Assembly: GCA_947853665.1 (NCBI GenBank)
Contig: CANTXF010000016.1
Location: 124,001-188,000 of the forward strand
DNA from: an uncultured Deferribacterales bacterium
Lineage (GTDB): Bacteria > Chrysiogenota > Deferribacteres > Deferribacterales > Mucispirillaceae
Length of the DNA: 64,000 nt
Direction: 5' to 3'
Position 1 is the first letter of the stretch; the number at the start of each line of letters is the position of its first letter. This document shows positions 4,006-48,486 of this stretch, piece by piece. The translations under genes and the position numbers were made by a program. A model generated the notes under the pieces. The model was given only the letters and a program-made list of their open reading frames with translations. It was not told where the DNA came from and searched no databases.

Positions 4006-4033
4006 AAAGCCGCTCTTACGAGCGGCTTTTTTA
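4006..4033. terminator. Bidirectional intrinsic terminator
   Basis: A 10-bp perfect stem (4006-4015 with 4020-4029) and a TTAC loop is flanked by T-runs in both directions. It separates potD (+) from the convergent hook-like gene (-), whose TAA stop (4031-4033) lies in the T-tract. Confidence 0.88.
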
Positions 4034-4633
4034 TGCCTTAAGGTCTATAACGCTGCCAAGCATTTCATCCGCCGCTCTGACTGTAAAGGCGTTGCTTTGA
4101 AAATATCTTAAATTTATCATACCGGATACGGTTTCGAACCCAACGTCCACGTTTGAGCCCATAACATATCCGGAAAGCACGGACGCTCCGGTAGGAATAT
4201 AATATTCTCCTGACACTGCGTCTATACGTCCTATCAGCTCTCCCTCGAAATACAGGCCCCCGTCCGCGTCCAGGCGGACATTGCCCCCTGCCCCGGTAAA
4301 TAGTATGCTTCCAGACGGCGAACGAAGGTTTCCAAGATCGTCTATACTGAAACGCTTAGCCGCGGCGCCGTAATAATCGGCGGAAGAAACGTCGGAACCC
4401 TTCCCTCCGAAAACGGCAATATCGCCGGGATTCCCGGTAGGAACCGCATACCCGTCGCTTTTATTCATTTTTACGGCGGAAAGACGCACCCCGCCTCTGC
4501 TCATATCGGAAAGAACCGCCATGCGCGATTTAAAGGACGGAGTGTTTACATTAGCCGTATTGCCGGCGTTTACAGCCGCGACGGAAGCCGACGCGTTCAG
4601 AGCCGACACGGCGCTGTTAAAGGCGTCTGTCAT
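4031..4633 (-). CDS. Orphan flagellar rod/hook-family protein
   Basis: This 200-residue protein has both ends of a flagellar rod/hook protein. The N-terminal helix ends in ANVNTPSFKS (compare the ANANTPGYK motif of FlgB/FlgC/FlgE/FlgG). The C-terminus, from about residue 160, resembles the flagellar basal-body rod C-terminal domain (RYFQSNAFTVRAADEMLGS). The middle contains GNPGDIAVFGGKG, like the hook-core signature. It is shorter than FlgE, FlgF or FlgG (about 250 or more), lies alone among non-flagellar genes and could be an accessory rod/hook paralogue. No ribosome-binding site precedes the ATG, and the promoter lies so close that the message may be leaderless. Confidence 0.75.
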   Translation of the reverse strand: MTDAFNSAVSALNASASVAAVNAGNTANVNTPSFKSRMAVLSDMSRGGVRLSAVKMNKSDGYAVPTGNPGDIAVFGGKGSDVSSADYYGAAAKRFSIDDLGNLRSPSGSILFTGAGGNVRLDADGGLYFEGELIGRIDAVSGEYYIPTGASVLSGYVMGSNVDVGFETVSGMINLRYFQSNAFTVRAADEMLGSVIDLKA

Positions 4634-4679: not shown

Positions 4680-4730
4680 TTGCAAAATATATATACCGGG
4701 ATATAATTACACCCGGAAAAATTTCAGAGG
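4680..4730 (+). promoter_or_regulatory. Promoter and ribosome site of the selenium operon
   Basis: TTGCAA (4680-4685), a 16-base spacer and a perfect TATAAT (4702-4707), followed by AGAGG (4726-4730) seven bases before the ATG at 4738. All six downstream genes overlap their neighbours, so this is likely the operon's only promoter. Confidence 0.65.
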
Positions 4731-4737
4731 TAACCTG

Positions 4738-5820
4738 ATGAGACGTATAGCATTTATACCTGTAGCGGCGGGAATCGTAATAGGGATAACGGCTTCTTTG
4801 CTCGTAATGTTCGGAAATCCGGGCAATATGGGCGTATGCGTAGCCTGCTTCACCAGAGATACGGTTGGAGCGCTGGGCTTTCACAGGGCGGGAATAGTCC
4901 AATACATAAGGCCGGAAATATTAGGCTTTATCATAGGCGCCCTTATATCGGCCATGCTTTTCAGAGAATTCAAACCAAGGGCCGGTTCCACTCCTTTCGC
5001 CCGTTTTTTTCTGGGGATGTTCGCAATGATAGGGGCTCTCGTTTTTCTGGGGTGCCCATGGAGAGCTTACCTGCGCCTTGCGGGAGGAGACTGGAACGCC
5101 ATAGCAGGCATAGCCGGCCTTGTATGCGGCGTTCTTATAGGCATATTTTTTCTTAAAAGAGGTTTTTCGCTGGGAAGAAACAGAAAAACCTTTATGTTTG
5201 CCGGCTACCTTATGCCCATACTTGCGGTCGGGCTTCTTATTTTGCTGATTACAGGAATACAGTTCGGCAAAACACCCGAAGGGAATCCCGCGCCTCCCGT
5301 ATTTTTCTCTTCGAGCGGCCCGGGAAGCCAGCACGCGCCTCTTATAATATCTCTCATAGCCGGTATAGTAATAGGCATTATAGCTCAGAAATCGCGCTTC
5401 TGCACTATTGCCGCGATAAGGGATACCGTTCTCTTAAAGGACGGCCATCTGCTCCAGGGCGTAATAGCCTTTATCATTGCGGCTTTCGTAACCAATCTTT
5501 TTCTGGGCCAGTTTCATCCCGGTTTTGAAGGACAGCCGGTGGCCCATACCAACACCTTGTGGAATTTCCTCGGTATGGTGCTGTCAGGTCTTGCGTTCAC
5601 TCTGGCGGGCGGATGCCCGGGAAGGCAGCTGATACTTTCCGGAGAGGGTGATTCCGACGCGGCCGTATTTGTAGCGGGAATGGCAGCCGGAGCGGCAGTT
5701 GCACACAATTTCAGCCTGGCAAGCTCAGGCGCCGGGATAACCTCCTTTGCGCCTTACGCTGTTTTTATCGGCCTGGCGTTTTGCGTTATTCTGGGATTTA
5801 CCATGAGGGAAAGAGGATGA
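4738..5820 (+). CDS. yedE: YedE-family putative selenium transporter
   Basis: A polytopic inner-membrane protein of 360 residues in the YeeE/YedE family, with about ten hydrophobic segments in two related halves. Each half carries a Gly-Cys-Pro turn (LGCPWRAYLR in the first, GGCPGRQLILSGEG in the second), the cysteine-containing pore motif of the family. YeeE members import thiosulfate. The longer YedE type co-occurs with selenium metabolism genes and is proposed to carry a selenium compound. The four genes that follow (TusA-like, cysteine desulfurase-like, DUF3343, FetAB) support the selenium-linked type. The substrate is inferred, not shown. Confidence 0.85.
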   Translation: MRRIAFIPVAAGIVIGITASLLVMFGNPGNMGVCVACFTRDTVGALGFHRAGIVQYIRPEILGFIIGALISAMLFREFKPRAGSTPFARFFLGMFAMIGALVFLGCPWRAYLRLAGGDWNAIAGIAGLVCGVLIGIFFLKRGFSLGRNRKTFMFAGYLMPILAVGLLILLITGIQFGKTPEGNPAPPVFFSSSGPGSQHAPLIISLIAGIVIGIIAQKSRFCTIAAIRDTVLLKDGHLLQGVIAFIIAAFVTNLFLGQFHPGFEGQPVAHTNTLWNFLGMVLSGLAFTLAGGCPGRQLILSGEGDSDAAVFVAGMAAGAAVAHNFSLASSGAGITSFAPYAVFIGLAFCVILGFTMRERG

Positions 5821-6029
5821 AAAAGACTGTAGATACAAGAGGATACTCGTGCCCTGAACCGGTGCTTATGACAAAAAACGCCATAGCATCCGACGAAAAC
5901 GGCGAGCTTACCATATTGACGGATGCCGGAACTCCTAAGGAAAACGTTACCCGTTTTGCGGAATATTCGGGTTATAAGGTCGAAACCGAGCCTTTTGAGG
6001 ACGGGTTCCGATTAAACCTGACAAAATGA
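5817..6029 (+). CDS. TusA/SirA-like sulfur or selenium carrier
   Basis: A 70-residue TusA-fold protein. The functional Cys-Pro-x-Pro motif is at residues 12-15 (SCPEP), where the cysteine would carry a persulfide or selenide. I use the ATG at 5817 that overlaps the yedE stop (ATGA). An upstream in-frame start at 5781 would only add residues encoded within yedE. It equals the N-terminal domain of YedF without the C-terminal DsrE-like part. It ends in a four-base overlap with the desulfurase-like gene, its likely donor. Confidence 0.85.
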   Translation: MKKTVDTRGYSCPEPVLMTKNAIASDENGELTILTDAGTPKENVTRFAEYSGYKVETEPFEDGFRLNLTK

Positions 6030-7177
6030 TTTATATGGATAACGCTGCCACTACGTTTCCCAAACCGGAGCAGGCGGCCGAAGCCATCAGGAAATTTATT
6101 ACAGATATAGGCGCGAACGCCGGACGCTCGGGGCACAGCTGCTCCGTGCGTGCCGGACGCGTCATATACGAAGCGAGAGAAGCTGCCGCGGCTCTTTTCA
6201 ATATAGGAGACCCTTTACGCGTTATCTTCACTTTAAACGCAACCGCGGCTATCAATACTGCTTTATACGGGATTCTGGAAGAAGGCGACTTGATAGTTAC
6301 CTCCGACGCGGAGCACAATTCGTCCATGCGTCCCATCAGGGAGCTTTCGCAGAGAAAAGGCATAAGGCTGGTAACGGCGCGTACCGATGAAAACGGCGTG
6401 ATAGACTATGATGATCTGCGTGCAAAATCAAAGGGCGCAAAGCTTATTTCCATAGCTCACGGCAATAACGTTACGGGAGCCGTATCCGATATAAAAAGCG
6501 CCGCGGATATTGCCCATGAAAACGGAGCCTATTTTATGACGGACGCGGCGCAGACGGCCGGTCTTATAGAAATAGATATGGAGTCCTGCGGAATCGACAT
6601 ACTCTGCGCCAGCGGCCATAAAGGGCTTTACGGCCCACAGGGCACGGGAATTATGATATTGGGAGAAAATATCGACCACAGGAAAATGAAGACCCTTTTC
6701 CAGGGAGGCACGGGCAGCCGTTCGGAGGAAGAGCGTCAGCCTGAAATGCTCCCGGATAAATTCGAATCGGGGACTGCCAACGGGCCGGGTATAGCCGGGC
6801 TTTCGGCATCTATAAAATGGCTTTCGGAGCGCGGCGTAGAAGCAAACTATATCCATGAAAAAAAATTGAGAGACAGCCTTCTTGCCGGGCTGGCGGATAT
6901 AGGCTGCGTGGAGCTGTACGCGTCTCCCGCCGGTTCGGTGTCTACCGGGACGCTTTCCTTCAATATACAGGGAAGAGAATCGTCGGAAATATGTTACCGG
7001 CTTGATTCCGCATACGGTATAATGACAAGGGCCGGACTTCACTGCGCGCCGTCCGTGCACCGCCGGATAGGGACTTACCCCGAAGGAACCGTAAGGCTGT
7101 CGGTAGGCGCCTTTACAAGCCTGCAGGACGTGGATTTCACTATAAATGCCGTAAAAGAGCTCGCCAGTGAAAAGTAA
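6026..7177 (+). CDS. Class V aminotransferase, cysteine desulfurase/selenocysteine lyase type
   Basis: A PLP enzyme of 383 residues expected to release sulfur from cysteine or selenium from selenocysteine. The PLP lysine is K199 in SGHKGLYGPQG. The candidate catalytic cysteine is C340 in GLHCAPSVHRRIG. The N-terminus MIYMDNAATTFPKP and the lack of an IscS C-terminal tail match the shorter subgroup often found beside YedE, YedF-like and DUF3343 genes. The clustering suggests it feeds the adjacent TusA-like and DUF3343 carriers. Sulfur versus selenium preference is not decidable from sequence. Confidence 0.85.
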   Translation: MIYMDNAATTFPKPEQAAEAIRKFITDIGANAGRSGHSCSVRAGRVIYEAREAAAALFNIGDPLRVIFTLNATAAINTALYGILEEGDLIVTSDAEHNSSMRPIRELSQRKGIRLVTARTDENGVIDYDDLRAKSKGAKLISIAHGNNVTGAVSDIKSAADIAHENGAYFMTDAAQTAGLIEIDMESCGIDILCASGHKGLYGPQGTGIMILGENIDHRKMKTLFQGGTGSRSEEERQPEMLPDKFESGTANGPGIAGLSASIKWLSERGVEANYIHEKKLRDSLLAGLADIGCVELYASPAGSVSTGTLSFNIQGRESSEICYRLDSAYGIMTRAGLHCAPSVHRRIGTYPEGTVRLSVGAFTSLQDVDFTINAVKELASEK

Positions 7178-7400
7178 CGGATACATTCTCGTCTATACTA
7201 CTTCCTCCGCTTTCAAAGCGGAAAAAATCTTAAAAAACGCAGGAATGAACATAAAGCTCGTGCCTACTCCCAGACATCTTTCAAGCGATTGCGGAATAAG
7301 CGTATATTTTGAAGCCGCTTCTACGGACGAAATAACAAACCTTCTGGACGAAAAAAGCATAGAATACGAAATAGGCGGCATGGAACAAGCCGATGACTAA
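7167..7400 (+). CDS. DUF3343 putative Se/S carrier-like protein
   Basis: A small protein of 77 residues matching the DUF3343 family. The N-terminal strand YILVYTTSSAFKAEKIL is followed by LVPTPRHLSSDCGISVYF, containing the conserved proline-arginine segment and the single cysteine (DCGI) expected to bind the chalcogen. The family accompanies YedE/YedF and orphan SelD genes in anaerobes with selenium-dependent molybdenum hydroxylases. That is known from genome comparison, not biochemistry. It overlaps the desulfurase-like gene by 11 bases and the ABC ATPase gene by 8. Confidence 0.8.
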   Translation: MKSNGYILVYTTSSAFKAEKILKNAGMNIKLVPTPRHLSSDCGISVYFEAASTDEITNLLDEKSIEYEIGGMEQADD

Positions 7401-8055
7401 TATGGTTCTGGAGTTTAAGCGCGCAGCCTTTAAATGGCCGGACGGGCCTGAACTGAAAAATATAAATCTTAAAGTCGGAAAAGGCGACTTCATACTTATT
7501 ACCGGACCCTCGGGTTCGGGTAAATCCACCCTTCTGCGGCTGGCTTCAAGGCTTGAAGAGCCGTCCGCAGGCATAATACTTTTCAACGGAATCCCCATAA
7601 CGGAAATAAACCCGGAAATGCTGCGCCGCAAGGTCGCATTCATACAGCAAACCCCCACGGTTACGGACGGTTCGGTAAAGGATAATCTGCTGCTGCCCTA
7701 TTCTTTTGCAGTTAACAGAAAAAGCCAGGTTCCGGACGATAAAGATATTCGTGAAAATTTAAAAAAACTGCGTCTTGATATTAACCCGGATAAGGATGCG
7801 TCGTCATTGAGCGTAGGACAAAGGCAAAGACTGTGCATACTGCGCTCCCTGCTCCTGAAACCGGCCGTTCTGCTGATGGACGAGCCCACAAGCGCCCTTG
7901 ACCCGGAAAGCAGGCTGCTTGTGGAAAAAATGTCGGAAGAAGTTAATCTGGAAGGCACGGCCATACTAATGGTCAGCCATTCGGAATACAGGCCGTCGGT
8001 TCCGTACAGAAAAATCACAGTTAAAGACGGCCGTATTACGGAAGAACGACAATGA
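7393..8055 (+). CDS. fetA: FetA/YbbL-like ABC exporter ATPase
   Basis: ATPase of 220 residues with Walker A GPSGSGKST (38-46), a variant signature LSVGQ (139-143) and Walker B LLMDEP (160-165). The next gene encodes the FetB/YbbM (UPF0014) membrane partner, so the pair corresponds to E. coli FetAB, associated with iron export and peroxide resistance. Its overlap with the DUF3343 gene and the absence of an internal promoter make it part of the selenium-linked transcript. That raises the possibility that this pair moves something other than iron. ATG at 7402 is an alternative start three codons in. Confidence 0.8.
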   Translation: MTNMVLEFKRAAFKWPDGPELKNINLKVGKGDFILITGPSGSGKSTLLRLASRLEEPSAGIILFNGIPITEINPEMLRRKVAFIQQTPTVTDGSVKDNLLLPYSFAVNRKSQVPDDKDIRENLKKLRLDINPDKDASSLSVGQRQRLCILRSLLLKPAVLLMDEPTSALDPESRLLVEKMSEEVNLEGTAILMVSHSEYRPSVPYRKITVKDGRITEERQ

Positions 8056-8828
8056 ACGGCGCCATTGAAATATCGACGGGAAACCTGGCGATAGGTCTGA
8101 TTTTTATCGTTATTGCGGGAATAATGTCCGTAATCCACGGGCTGAAGCTGGAAAAGGATTTGACGATAGGAACGATACGCTCTATCGCTCAGCTTACGGC
8201 CATGGGATACCTGCTTAAAATAATTTTCAGCATGGAGTCGGCCGTTTTTGTCATTATTCTGTTTGCCGTTATGACCTTTTTCGCGGCGGAAATAATAAAA
8301 GGACGCGTAAAAAAACAAAACGTACCCTATTTTCTTCCCACTCTTTTTTCTGTGCAGATAACGTTTTTTTTAATAACATACATAGTAACCGCTCTTATAG
8401 TGGAAGCTAAACCCTGGTGGACTCCGCAATACTTTATACCTATCGGAGGTATGATAGCGGGAAATTCCATGAGCGCGCTTGCCATATCTCTCGACAGGCT
8501 TTTTTCCGACTTTAAAGCGAAAAGAGCGCTGGTGGAAATGAAACTGTGCCTGGGAGCCTCTCCCGCAGAAGCAAGCAGTGAAATATTCAAAGACGCTCTG
8601 AAAGCAGGGATGATACCATCCATAAACGGAATGATGGGCGCTGGCCTCGTTTCCATACCCGGCATGATGACTGGGCAGATTCTGGCAGGCTCCGACCCTA
8701 CGGAAGCGGTAAAATACCAGATAGTGGTTATGCTTATGCTTGTGGCTTCTACTGCCATAGCGAGCTTTATAGTGCTGAAACTTGTAGGCGGGCGCTGCTT
8801 CGGAAAAGGCGGCAATCTGCTTGTATAG
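8052..8828 (+). CDS. fetB: FetB/YbbM-like (UPF0014) membrane component
   Basis: Inner-membrane protein of 258 residues with about seven hydrophobic segments, belonging to the UPF0014/FetB family. Family hallmarks are the conserved GGMIAGNSMSALAISLDR (about residues 136-153) and MMGAGLVSIPGMMTGQILAG (about 197-216). It overlaps fetA by four bases (ATGA) and ends the operon. FetAB is reported to export iron in E. coli. Here the tight link to selenium/sulfur-carrier genes is unusual and leaves the cargo open. Confidence 0.82.
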   Translation: MNGAIEISTGNLAIGLIFIVIAGIMSVIHGLKLEKDLTIGTIRSIAQLTAMGYLLKIIFSMESAVFVIILFAVMTFFAAEIIKGRVKKQNVPYFLPTLFSVQITFFLITYIVTALIVEAKPWWTPQYFIPIGGMIAGNSMSALAISLDRLFSDFKAKRALVEMKLCLGASPAEASSEIFKDALKAGMIPSINGMMGAGLVSIPGMMTGQILAGSDPTEAVKYQIVVMLMLVASTAIASFIVLKLVGGRCFGKGGNLLV

Positions 8829-9070: not shown

Positions 9071-9103
9071 GCCGTCCGAAAACCTATACGGATTCCGGAC
9101 GGC
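9071..9103 (-). terminator. Possible terminator of the acyl-CoA ligase gene
   Basis: An 8-bp perfect stem GCCGTCCG/CGGACGGC (9071-9078 with 9096-9103) spans the stop codon of the minus-strand ligase. Beyond it the minus strand is AT-rich but lacks a solid T-run. The rest of the 255-base gap 8829-9083 shows nothing I can name. Confidence 0.4.
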
Positions 9104-10709
9104 GGCCGGGAGCCAGCTTATCTTTTGCGGAGCTAAAGGCATCTTCTATTTTCGGGCCTGCAATCTGGCCGTTCATTATCATTTCCTTAAGTTTGCGTTT
9201 AAGCACTTTGCCGATTGTGGTAAGGGGCAGCTCTTCAGAAAAATAAATATGCTTCGGTATTTTAAAATTGGCCAGATTCTCTTTAAGGTATTGTTTGATG
9301 GATTTCTCCGTTGCCTCCGAATCCGGGGCTTTTTTAACATAAGCGACTATTACTTCGTCGCCTTCAGAATCCGGAATCCCTATAACGGCGGCGGCCTCTA
9401 CCCCGGGCACCTTGTAGACAAGCTCTTCCACCTCTCTTGGATAAACGTTCATGCCTTTTACAAGAATAAGGTCTTTTTTTCTGTCCACTATGCTTATATT
9501 GCCGTCTTCGTCCATATATCCGAGATCGCCCGTAAAAAACCAGCCGTTTTTCAAAACGTCGGCGGTATCTTTGGGTTTTTTCCAATATCCGCGCATAATA
9601 TTGCTGCCGGAAACTATTATTTCCCCGACCGTTCCCCTTGGTACTTCCATGTCGTCTCCGTCCACAATCCTGACGCTGACGCCTTTGAGAGGCTTGCCGA
9701 CGCTGCCGGCTTTGGGGCTTTCTATGGAATTTCCGGCGACTACGGGGGAGGCCTCTGAAAGACCGTAGCCTTCCAGCAGGCCCGTGCCGAATTTCTTTTT
9801 GAAAGCGTTGAAAACTTCCACGGGAAGCCCTGAACCGCTTGATAAATGTATCTTTACGGGATAAAGCAGCTTAATGAACCATTTAGGCATATCAGCTTTT
9901 ACAAGAGCCGCGTAAACGCTGGGAACCGCCACCATAACGGTCGGGCGCTTGAATATCAGTATACTTTTAAAATTCTTTTTCTTAAGGTCCATGACAGATT
10001 CAAGAACGATTATGCTGGCACCCAGAAAAGTAGGGAAAATAATCGTAACCTCAAGAGAATATATATGGAACATAGGCAGGAAAAGCAGAAATCTGTCTTT
10101 TGCGTTCATGCTGTAGGTGTCGTTGGCCATAGCGCACATTGTTATAAGATTGCCGTGAGACAGCATGGCGCCCTTAGGCTCGCCGGTAGTCCCGGACGTA
10201 TATATTATAACCGCAAGATCCGAATGGTCTATGGGTATGTCAAGCGGCTTGTCGCTCATGGGGCCGGAGTATGCCAGCAAATCCTTAGCGCCCCACTCGG
10301 ACGCTCCGGGGCCGAAGGCGAAAATCGTTTTAAGAGTATCGCATTCCTCCGCCGCACCCTTTATTACAGATTTATACTTTTCAGAAGATATGATAATCTC
10401 CGCCTCGCAGTTTTCCAGTATATAGGCGACTTCCCTTTCTTTCAGAAAAGTATTTACCGGCACGGCTACTCCGCCCGCTTTTACTATGGCAAAAAGGGAA
10501 AATATGAAATACGGCGAGTTTTCCAGCATTAAAGCGACTCTGTCGCCTTTTTTCAGCCCTGTCGTCAAAAGGGCCCTGGAAAGCTTATTGCATATTTTTT
10601 CCGCCTGAGAATACGTAAATTTAGTATCTTTAAAAAATATATATTTCTTACGGCCGCGGGCGGCAGCCATTTCCGTTAAAATATTACCGATGTTTCCGGG
10701 TATAGTCAT
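9084..10709 (-). CDS. Long-chain acyl-CoA ligase (AMP-forming)
   Basis: An adenylate-forming enzyme of 541 residues that activates a carboxylic acid, most likely a fatty acid, to its CoA thioester. The AMP-binding loop YTSGTTGEPKG is at 170-180. Later come GYGLSEASP, the TGDLGYMDEDG hinge region with RKKDLILVKG, and near the C-terminus GKVLKRKL with the catalytic lysine. The pattern is of FadD-type ligases; acid chain length cannot be told. It stands alone, flanked by unrelated genes, so no pathway can be inferred from neighbours. Confidence 0.85.
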   Translation of the reverse strand: MTIPGNIGNILTEMAAARGRKKYIFFKDTKFTYSQAEKICNKLSRALLTTGLKKGDRVALMLENSPYFIFSLFAIVKAGGVAVPVNTFLKEREVAYILENCEAEIIISSEKYKSVIKGAAEECDTLKTIFAFGPGASEWGAKDLLAYSGPMSDKPLDIPIDHSDLAVIIYTSGTTGEPKGAMLSHGNLITMCAMANDTYSMNAKDRFLLFLPMFHIYSLEVTIIFPTFLGASIIVLESVMDLKKKNFKSILIFKRPTVMVAVPSVYAALVKADMPKWFIKLLYPVKIHLSSGSGLPVEVFNAFKKKFGTGLLEGYGLSEASPVVAGNSIESPKAGSVGKPLKGVSVRIVDGDDMEVPRGTVGEIIVSGSNIMRGYWKKPKDTADVLKNGWFFTGDLGYMDEDGNISIVDRKKDLILVKGMNVYPREVEELVYKVPGVEAAAVIGIPDSEGDEVIVAYVKKAPDSEATEKSIKQYLKENLANFKIPKHIYFSEELPLTTIGKVLKRKLKEMIMNGQIAGPKIEDAFSSAKDKLAPGRRPESV

Positions 10710-10815
10710 ATTAAAATTCCTTAAAATTTATTTAAGCGCAAACGCCGGGCATTTTAACAGGCAGGCACAACAGCCCGCCGTTTACCGGGCATAAAACGGT
10801 TAAAATTATAACGCG

Positions 10816-11682
10816 TTATAAATGCAGGAGTTCTTTCGCCCTTTCGGCAAACGCGCGCCGCAGAACTCCCCTCGCCTCTTCTTCCGACATATAGCTTCCT
10901 GATATTTCCACTTCTTCGGAGTATTTTACCTGAGCGTTTTTAACGTCGTATTCCTCAAGGGCTTCCGTTTCAAAATCGGCTCCCCTTACAACGAGACGCC
11001 CGCAAAAGTCATTACCAAGAAGGTTTTTAAGCATATCCCTGAGCTGAGCCGCGTTAAGCACCTGCTTCTGCTTTGGAGCGGCAACCGTTATATCGAATTT
11101 CAAACCGCCAAGCTCGTCAACGATGCCAAGAAGCTTTCCTTCCCCGGTCATATTAAATTCGGCCAGATCGTCGTGGGTCGGAAAGCTCATAGAGGCCGAA
11201 ACCTTTTTATAATAATCCCACGACAGGGTTTTTACGTCTATCCTGTCCTCAAAAAGAGGAGTGAGCTTTACGCCTCCGTCTGTGGAAAATTCCTTCAGAA
11301 ACTTTTTAAAGCTTCCGGCGGCAGCTCCGGAAGCCGCTGCCATGGCAAGCACAAATTTTCCCGCCGGATTTATATAAGCGTAAAAAAGCTCTCCCAGCGA
11401 TCCTTCGCTTAAAGGTACGGATGATATTTCCCCATCCTCGTTAAACCATACGGGCCAGGCTGATTTTTCTTTTACAAGGCTTATAAAATAAGTATCAGTA
11501 TCGGAGATATCTTCTCGGCCGTTAATTCTCCATAAAAAACGCGTCTCCCCCGATTCGAAGGAACCGGACGTTTCGCCGCTGTCAAGCAGCGCGTTCATAG
11601 AGTTATGAAAATTTACAAAATATTCCTCGTCGGAGGCTTCTATAAAATGATAGCTTACCGACGCTTTTTTACTCCAGCTCAA
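10816..11682 (-). CDS. Unrecognised 288-residue cytoplasmic protein
   Basis: I do not recognise this protein with confidence. It has no signal peptide or membrane segment and looks alpha/beta. A Gly/Ala-rich stretch (FVLAMAAASGAAAGSF) lies in the middle and a basic helical C-terminus ends it (RRAFAERAKELLHL). I chose the TTG at 11682 because GGAGG lies seven bases upstream; the frame stays open to 11748 but that extension has no ribosome site. The layout (short N-terminal part, WPVWF segment, LGELF segment) recalls proteins of unknown function seen near phage or defence genes, but that is only an impression. Confidence 0.6.
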   Translation of the reverse strand: MSWSKKASVSYHFIEASDEEYFVNFHNSMNALLDSGETSGSFESGETRFLWRINGREDISDTDTYFISLVKEKSAWPVWFNEDGEISSVPLSEGSLGELFYAYINPAGKFVLAMAAASGAAAGSFKKFLKEFSTDGGVKLTPLFEDRIDVKTLSWDYYKKVSASMSFPTHDDLAEFNMTGEGKLLGIVDELGGLKFDITVAAPKQKQVLNAAQLRDMLKNLLGNDFCGRLVVRGADFETEALEEYDVKNAQVKYSEEVEISGSYMSEEEARGVLRRAFAERAKELLHL

Positions 11683-11816
11683 AAAAATACCTCCACCCCG
11701 AAAAAAATCGCAACAACAGACGATGTTATTATTACCAGATAGACTCATATTTGTAAACTTTTTCCGTTTTGGAAAATCATCATCATATATTTTATCTCTT
11801 ATTCCAAGGATATTAC

Positions 11817-13067
11817 ATGAAAAAAGCGCTCTCCCTCGTATTTATCTTATTTACGGTCTTTACCGCGTTTTCTTCCCATGCTTCTAACAGGCTTACGCCG
11901 GTTGCCGCCGCAGTCAGAGACATACAGGATTCCGTGGTAAACATAAGAACGGAGAAAATAGTTAAGCAAAGGCCGCTAATGGACCCTTTTTTCGATGATT
12001 TTTTCGGTTTTTCAAATACTTACCGCACACAAAGCCTGGGCTCCGGAGTGATAATATCTTCCGACGGGATAATAATAACCAATAATCACGTGGTTGAAGC
12101 GGCAAATAAGATATTTATAATACTTACCGACAACAGACAAACGGAAGCGGAAATAATCGGCACCGACCCTACCCTGGACATTGCCGTAATAAAAATTAAA
12201 AACAAAGTAGACGGTCTTAAACCGGCACGCCTCGGAAAAAGCTCCGACATAATGCTCGGGGAAACGGTTATCGCCATGGGAAACCCCTACGGCCTTAATT
12301 CCTCAGTCACGACCGGAGTAGTTTCAAACGTAAGGCGCATAGTGGGCGGAGACGCCGGTTTTTCCGTGTTCGTTCAAACGGACGCTCTCATCAATCCGGG
12401 AAACTCCGGAGGCCCGCTTATAAATCTTGACGGCGAAGTGATAGGCATAAACACTGCCGTTTACAGGGAAGCGCAGGGCATAGGCTTTTCCATCCCCATA
12501 GATACGGTAAAAAGAGCCGTACCGGAATTTGTGCGGTACGGCGCTATCAGACGGGGCTTTCCCGGGTTCAGCGTAAAAGAAAGAGGCGGCGGGGAAGGCG
12601 GTCTCGAAATAGCCTCCGTACACGCGAAAAGCGCGGCGTCCGGAGCAGGAGTTAAAGAGGGATACAGGCTTATATCCCTGGACGGTATCCCCGTTAACAC
12701 TATCAACGCTTTCCGGTATATAGTAAGGACGTTTCCGCGCGGATGCACGGTTTCCGCCGTATTTACCGGAGAAGGACGGCGTATAGAAACGGATATCGAA
12801 ATGGCCCCTCTGCCGAAAGATTACGGTTTGTCCCTTCTCAAATCAAAATACGGCATAACGTTTACGGAAACAGGCAGCTATATAATAGTATCGTCCAGCG
12901 GGGCGGAAAAATATATAAGGCGCGGAGACATACTTCTTGCCGTCAATAACAGGAAGCTATCGTCGTCCGCCCACCTTTCCGAGCTGCTGAACGATGCGGA
13001 AGGAACATCCGCGGTTTTTACATTCGCGAGAAACAACGGGGTTTTTAACGTGCAATTGTCTTTATAG
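11817..13067 (+). CDS. DegP/HtrA-type periplasmic serine protease
   Basis: Exported trypsin-fold protease of 416 residues for envelope protein quality control. A signal peptide covers about residues 1-23. The catalytic triad is visible: H91 in NNHVV, D121 in TLDIAVIK and S197 in NPGNSGGPL. Two PDZ-like regions follow (about 235-320 and 345-416). The second is short and divergent, so this resembles a DegQ/DegS-length protein more than DegP. The start at 11817 follows AAGGA at a six-base spacing; upstream in-frame codons lack a ribosome site. It is transcribed divergently from the unknown gene at 10816. Confidence 0.9.
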   Translation: MKKALSLVFILFTVFTAFSSHASNRLTPVAAAVRDIQDSVVNIRTEKIVKQRPLMDPFFDDFFGFSNTYRTQSLGSGVIISSDGIIITNNHVVEAANKIFIILTDNRQTEAEIIGTDPTLDIAVIKIKNKVDGLKPARLGKSSDIMLGETVIAMGNPYGLNSSVTTGVVSNVRRIVGGDAGFSVFVQTDALINPGNSGGPLINLDGEVIGINTAVYREAQGIGFSIPIDTVKRAVPEFVRYGAIRRGFPGFSVKERGGGEGGLEIASVHAKSAASGAGVKEGYRLISLDGIPVNTINAFRYIVRTFPRGCTVSAVFTGEGRRIETDIEMAPLPKDYGLSLLKSKYGITFTETGSYIIVSSSGAEKYIRRGDILLAVNNRKLSSSAHLSELLNDAEGTSAVFTFARNNGVFNVQLSL

Positions 13068-48296: not shown

Positions 48297-48480
48297 TAAA
48301 AAACGCCCCCGCATGTGCCGTATGAAATTAACAGTGCAGCCTGATATAAATCAGGTGCCGCTCAGCGCTGTTTCAGGCTTCCTTATTCATGTAAGGCATG
48401 CACACCGCAGCGTCATCGCGGCAGGTATTTCAAAAGTGTTGGCTCCAGTCCGTTAAAAACAACACGCGCACCGCAGGGGT
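48297..48480 (-). ncRNA. ssrS: 6S RNA
   Basis: The gap between zapA and rarA folds as a long hairpin on the minus strand. The 5' arm CCCCTGC plus GTGC (from 48479) pairs with the 3' arm GCAC plus GCGGGGG (ending at 48306), giving the closing stem of 6S RNA, followed by T6 (48299-48304). A large central region with a bulge, as needed to mimic an open promoter and trap sigma70 RNA polymerase, lies in between. Length of about 180 bases and position directly after zapA and upstream of the 5-FCL gene match the known ssrS neighbourhood. Boundaries are approximate. Confidence 0.8.
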
Positions 48481-48486
48481 GATCTT

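Follow-up and report, generated by a model that had tools for sequence, protein, structure and literature searches.

The stretch of DNA analysed here, referred to as the window, is a 64 kb part of a genome of 2.43 Mb that is the sole member of its genus among 51 genomes of its phylum and, to judge by group sizes, probably belongs to a Mucispirillaceae relative in Deferribacterota. At positions 4738-8828, the plus strand of the window contains a block of six ORFs coding for YedE, a TusA-like protein, a desulfurase, a DUF3343 protein, and FetA-like and FetB-like proteins. The initial annotation of this block as six overlapping genes of these families is upheld: the ORFs are in place, the matches pass the Pfam or TIGR cut-offs given below, and the successive junctions overlap by 4, 4, 11, 8 and 4 bases. 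The features of the block are as follows.

4680..4707, + strand: promoter-like site TTGCAA-16-TATAAT, 10/12, a consensus match only, ~30 bases 5' of the yedE start
4738..5820, + strand: YedE-family putative selenium transporter, 360 aa (TIGR04112, 498 bits; cut-off 200)
5817..6029, + strand: TusA-like sulfur/selenium carrier, 70 aa (PF01206, 59.5 bits; cut-off 28.6)
6026..7177, + strand: PLP-dependent cysteine desulfurase/selenocysteine-lyase-like enzyme (TIGR01977, 405 bits; cut-off 377)
7167..7400, + strand: DUF3343 Se/S carrier-like protein, 77 aa, GTG start (PF11823, 75.9 bits; cut-off 25)
7393..8055, + strand: FetA-like ABC ATPase (PF00005, 110 bits; cut-off 25; best family NF007601, FetA)
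8052..8828, + strand: FetB-like UPF0014 ABC permease, 258 aa, the last gene of the block (PF03649, 284 bits; cut-off 22.6)

The block is flanked by a divergent gene (4031-4633, minus strand) and a convergent gene (9084-10709, minus strand). The divergent gene encodes a small flagellar hook/rod-like protein of 200 aa with the Flg_bbr_C domain; no second flagellar gene is located directly beside it.

Gene block and host genome

All six genes were originally placed behind one visible promoter. A consensus scan detects the site upstream of yedE and no promoter-like site in the 1.0 kb 5' of fetA, the closest internal match (9/12) being at 6290-6319, but the number of promoter-like matches across the region (5 observed against 6.4 expected from shuffles) is not above background, so that a single promoter for the block is plausible rather than demonstrated. 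Gene overlap by itself is not unusual here either, because overlaps are frequent in this genome (13 of the 39 same-strand neighbours in the window). The six genes are presumably co-transcribed, and fetAB is most likely made together with the preceding genes through translational coupling. RNA folding in the region upstream of the operon is unremarkable (z -1.6), and a search against Rfam yields no match inside the operon; a 6S RNA (RF00013, 83.3 bits) is located at 48302-48482 on the minus strand of the window. The composition is slightly higher over the desulfurase gene (about 0.52, compared with 0.43-0.50), a rise too small to prove foreign origin.

The host decodes selenocysteine, given that its genome encodes SelD (301 bits, G000:C11:20706-21620) whose reading frame contains a TGA close to the beginning of the matched part, on its upstream side, as well as SelB (291 bits; cut-off 242) and a tRNA-Sec with the tca anticodon (72.9 bits). 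The in-frame TGA indicates that SelD is probably itself a selenoprotein, and the same applies to most of the relatives with selD. Among the sampled members of its own family, no other genome encodes SelD over the cut-off, FetB or DUF3343.

The four-gene cassette

The TIGR04112 (seleno_YedE) match spans residues 9-354 of YedE, which makes this protein a full-length member of the family, and its gene is linked to TusA/SirA-like, Sec-lyase-like and DUF3343 genes, the combination that characterises the seleno-YedE cassette. The TusA-like protein keeps the CPxP motif (as CPEP) and lacks the DsrE-like second domain; its match to YedF (TIGR03527) stays below the cut-off (52 against 110) and covers profile positions 1-61 of 194, so that this is a TusA-only protein and not a YedF. 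In the desulfurase, the PLP lysine (SGHK) and the catalytic cysteine (RAGLHC) are both intact. The enzyme scores below the cut-off of the SclA selenocysteine lyase (NF040779; 304 against 525); TIGR01977, the family to which it belongs, is named selenocysteine lyase in PMC2276186. The only cysteine of the DUF3343 protein lies in the SSxCG motif (here SSDCG). Its predicted fold, modelled from a two-sequence alignment (mean pLDDT 83.5), is beta-alpha-beta-beta-alpha-beta with this cysteine in a loop, and would be compatible with a carrier role; a PDB sequence search with the protein returned no match.

The association of YedE, DUF3343 and TIGR01977 with selenium has been published (PMC5322559, PMC2276186), and the four-gene core is in line with these reports. 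In Desulfobacterota, the phylum of Desulfovibrio sp. A2, relatives of the window YedE reach 64% identity, and 9 of the 20 YedE loci inspected contain YedE, TusA, desulfurase and DUF3343 in the exact order of the window, with selD as the directly next gene in three of the nine. The window YedE clusters with the YedEs of Desulfobacterota (branch value 99), apart from the only YedE seen in its own phylum (G050). The shared gene order and this grouping identify the four-gene core as a known selenium-type cassette; what sets the window apart is fetAB joined to its end. The selenium link initially proposed for the first four genes is thus borne out by the seleno_YedE membership, the Sec-decoding host and the same cassette in Desulfobacterota, where selD is sometimes the fifth gene.

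The desulfurase-DUF3343 pair alone is no proof of a selenium function, because it has SufBD-core neighbours in some Bacillota. At three loci from genomes of Moorella's phylum (L276-L278), genes for an ABC ATPase of the SufC type and a SufBD-core protein, and after them a LysR-type gene, lie downstream of the pair, possibly forming a minimal SUF system with DUF3343 as the sulfur carrier. In several Moorella-family genomes, the pair directly adjoins feoA-feoB, along with a gene for an MntR/DtxR-family regulator. Such neighbours indicate that desulfurase and DUF3343 can also work for the metabolism of sulfur or Fe-S clusters.

The FetAB-like pair and its rarity beside the cassette

In the FetA-like ATPase, Walker A, LSVGQ, Walker B and the H-loop are all intact. 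Both proteins fall short of the curated equivalog cut-offs, FetA with 154 bits against 292 (NF007601) and FetB with 157 bits against 410 (TIGR00245), so that an iron-export role is suggested by distant homology only. Of the FetAB-type exporter in the initial annotation, the pair of a UPF0014 permease and an ABC ATPase stands, whereas 'exporter' is a label taken over by analogy from E. coli. There, FetAB (YbbL/YbbM) was reported by Nicolaou et al. (2013; cited in PMC4902296) to export iron; overproduction lowers the iron content of the cells and, according to PMC4902296, a transport assay had not yet been shown. A PDB sequence search with FetB found no relative, comparing the fold of the FetB model (pLDDT 85.6) with PDB structures brought up nothing at E <= 0.001, and the literature surveyed around FetB/UPF0014 contains nothing that ties the family to selenium.

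The window FetB is placed within a Desulfovibrionaceae clade (branch value 99), with identity up to 65-67%, compared with only 31-42% for the FetBs of its own phylum. The nearest Desulfovibrionaceae homologues have no YedE-cassette neighbours. The own-phylum fetAB genes have a context of their own, metX (homoserine acetyltransferase-like), a methyltransferase-like gene, fetA, fetB and a ClC-channel-like gene, conserved at seven loci (L027, L029, L033, L034, L035, L037 and L039); some of the FetBs in this phylum come without fetA.

The initial annotation suggested looking across genomes for fetAB as a conserved neighbour of DUF3343 and YedE genes. In the genome samples and the one pattern-based scan employed here, the full six-gene arrangement was found in no other sampled genome, and beyond the window the neighbourhood is limited to Moorella stamsii and to DUF3343. 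Among the 80 FetB loci nearest to that of the window (GTDB species genomes), several of which are on short contigs so that absence is not always informative, M. stamsii alone has the desulfurase-DUF3343 pair directly 5' of fetAB. Of the 130 genomes sampled from Moorella's phylum, 88 contain PF11823 and 62 contain PF03649, the two lying within 3 kb of each other only in M. stamsii. The matches listed for the Desulfovibrio phylum (148 genomes) include no FetB beside YedE or DUF3343, and in a 395-genome search of the same phylum FetB is found in the 1.5 kb flanks of 0 of the 30 best DUF3343 loci. Confinement of the arrangement to this genome, initially named as one half of the outcome that would refute the proposal, is thus nearly the case, the partial match in M. 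stamsii being the sole exception.

In M. stamsii (L075), the genes run desulfurase-DUF3343-fetA-fetB-feoA-feoB, and past them lies a regulator gene of the MntR family. The fetAB pair looks inserted in this cluster too, because 12 further loci from the Moorella family contain desulfurase and DUF3343 but no fetAB, and in several of them these two genes lie directly beside feoA-feoB. The M. stamsii feoB (10317-12511) appears to be split into a GTPase-domain ORF of 265 aa and a membrane ORF of 465 aa, as in several relatives.

Co-occurrence with selD in Moorella's phylum is strong for DUF3343 (odds 19.6, p 1.5e-11) and weak for FetB (odds 2.2, p 0.055, a statistic that ignores kinship). The FetB-selD link within the phylum of the window (all 23 FetB genomes have selD; FetB is present in 0 of the 26 without it) was dropped as support, because these FetBs occur in other contexts, are only 31-42% identical to that of the window, and follow lineages, and because the pattern nearly vanishes in Moorella's phylum.

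Probable origin and possible function of the operon

The block is probably a Desulfobacterota-type operon for the acquisition and delivery of selenium (or selenium and sulfur) to which a metal-exporter-like fetAB pair has been appended. Going by the protein families, from which the order of the relay, what YedE and FetAB carry and in which direction, and any physiological coupling are deduced, YedE would carry a reduced form of selenium or sulfane sulfur through the membrane, and the desulfurase/selenocysteine lyase would act on selenocysteine or cysteine and take up the released Se(0) or S(0) on its active-site cysteine. The TusA-like and DUF3343 proteins, each using its one conserved cysteine, would then hand Se/S on to SelD, whose gene lies at another place in the genome, and SelD would feed selenocysteine synthesis. 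The FetAB-like transporter most likely retains its family role as an exporter of a metal (iron) or a small molecule, and perhaps lowers free iron during selenide/sulfide handling. The junction between the cassette and fetAB does exist, but it is rare, and horizontal gene transfer is its probable source.

It is possible, though somewhat unlikely, that the junction is an accident, fetAB having arrived downstream of the cassette by horizontal transfer and retaining an independent, iron-controlled function. The occurrence of the full arrangement only here, the Desulfovibrionaceae affinity of a FetB unlike the others of the phylum, and the absence of both FetB and DUF3343 from own-family relatives all agree with such an origin, whereas the 8-base overlap between DUF3343 and fetA, with no promoter-like site just 5' of the latter, suggests dependence on upstream transcription, and Moorella shows that the pairing came about on at least one further occasion. 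An operon whose main task is to bring sulfur to Fe-S clusters, in which desulfurase-DUF3343 would supply the sulfur and FetAB balance the iron, is unlikely: the SufC/SufBD-type or feoA-feoB and MntR/DtxR-family neighbours of the pair in Bacillota, and the position of the M. stamsii fetAB between DUF3343 and feoA, are what it would predict, but the window YedE is of the selenium type, well over the TIGR04112 cut-off, the Desulfobacterota counterparts carry selD rather than suf or feo genes, and the host decodes Sec. Selenium is preferred over sulfur here because of this YedE and the selD-bearing counterparts.

That FetAB functions within the selenium pathway by carrying a selenium or sulfur compound, e.g. 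a persulfide or selenide bound to a thiol, is very unlikely, even though fetA is co-directional and overlaps with a carrier gene, a second, separate desulfurase-DUF3343-fetAB cluster exists in M. stamsii, and the missed FetA/FetB equivalog cut-offs imply that the family does not fix the cargo. Against this stand the nearest FetAB relatives (Desulfovibrionaceae), which have no cassette neighbours, the sampled close relatives of the cassette, which have no fetAB, and the weak FetB-selD co-occurrence outside the phylum of the window. A broader proposal, under which a UPF0014-type ABC exporter was recruited at least twice independently, in the window and in M. stamsii, to chalcogen-carrier clusters, and either exports a Se/S compound or links the efflux of iron to the trafficking of selenide or persulfide, is quite unlikely as well. 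The iron-selenium coordination or different cargo initially put forward is not established, with the six-gene order found nowhere else and desulfurase-DUF3343-fetAB recurring only in M. stamsii; the rarity of the arrangement makes either less likely than a lineage-specific addition of fetAB, and the case for a new selenium-iron system, or for a selenium cargo of FetAB, is thin.

What UPF0014 transporters carry, and what YedE and DUF3343 do, is so far putative in each case, and a natural operon that joins the three offers a compact setting in which to study them. Even if ordinary, the locus documents YedE-TusA-desulfurase-DUF3343(-selD) as a conserved cassette, which probably spread horizontally into this Deferribacterota-like genome.

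Compared with the known selenium clusters of YedE, TusA/SirA-like, Sec-lyase-like and DUF3343 genes (PMC5322559; TIGR04112, TIGR01977, PF11823), the window contains the same four families in a Sec-decoding genome, with the difference that its cassette is followed by fetAB and the known ones by selD or an unrelated gene. With the M. stamsii cluster, it shares the order and strand of desulfurase, DUF3343, FetA and FetB, at only 39% identity for the desulfurase and 36% for DUF3343; there, YedE and TusA are not adjacent, whereas feo and MntR genes adjoin. The two-gene ATPase-permease architecture and the UPF0014 family are common to the window pair and E. coli FetAB, from which the window pair differs in scoring under both equivalog cut-offs, in its other neighbours, and in a FetB for which the PDB searches gave neither a sequence relative nor a fold match at the E-value limit used.
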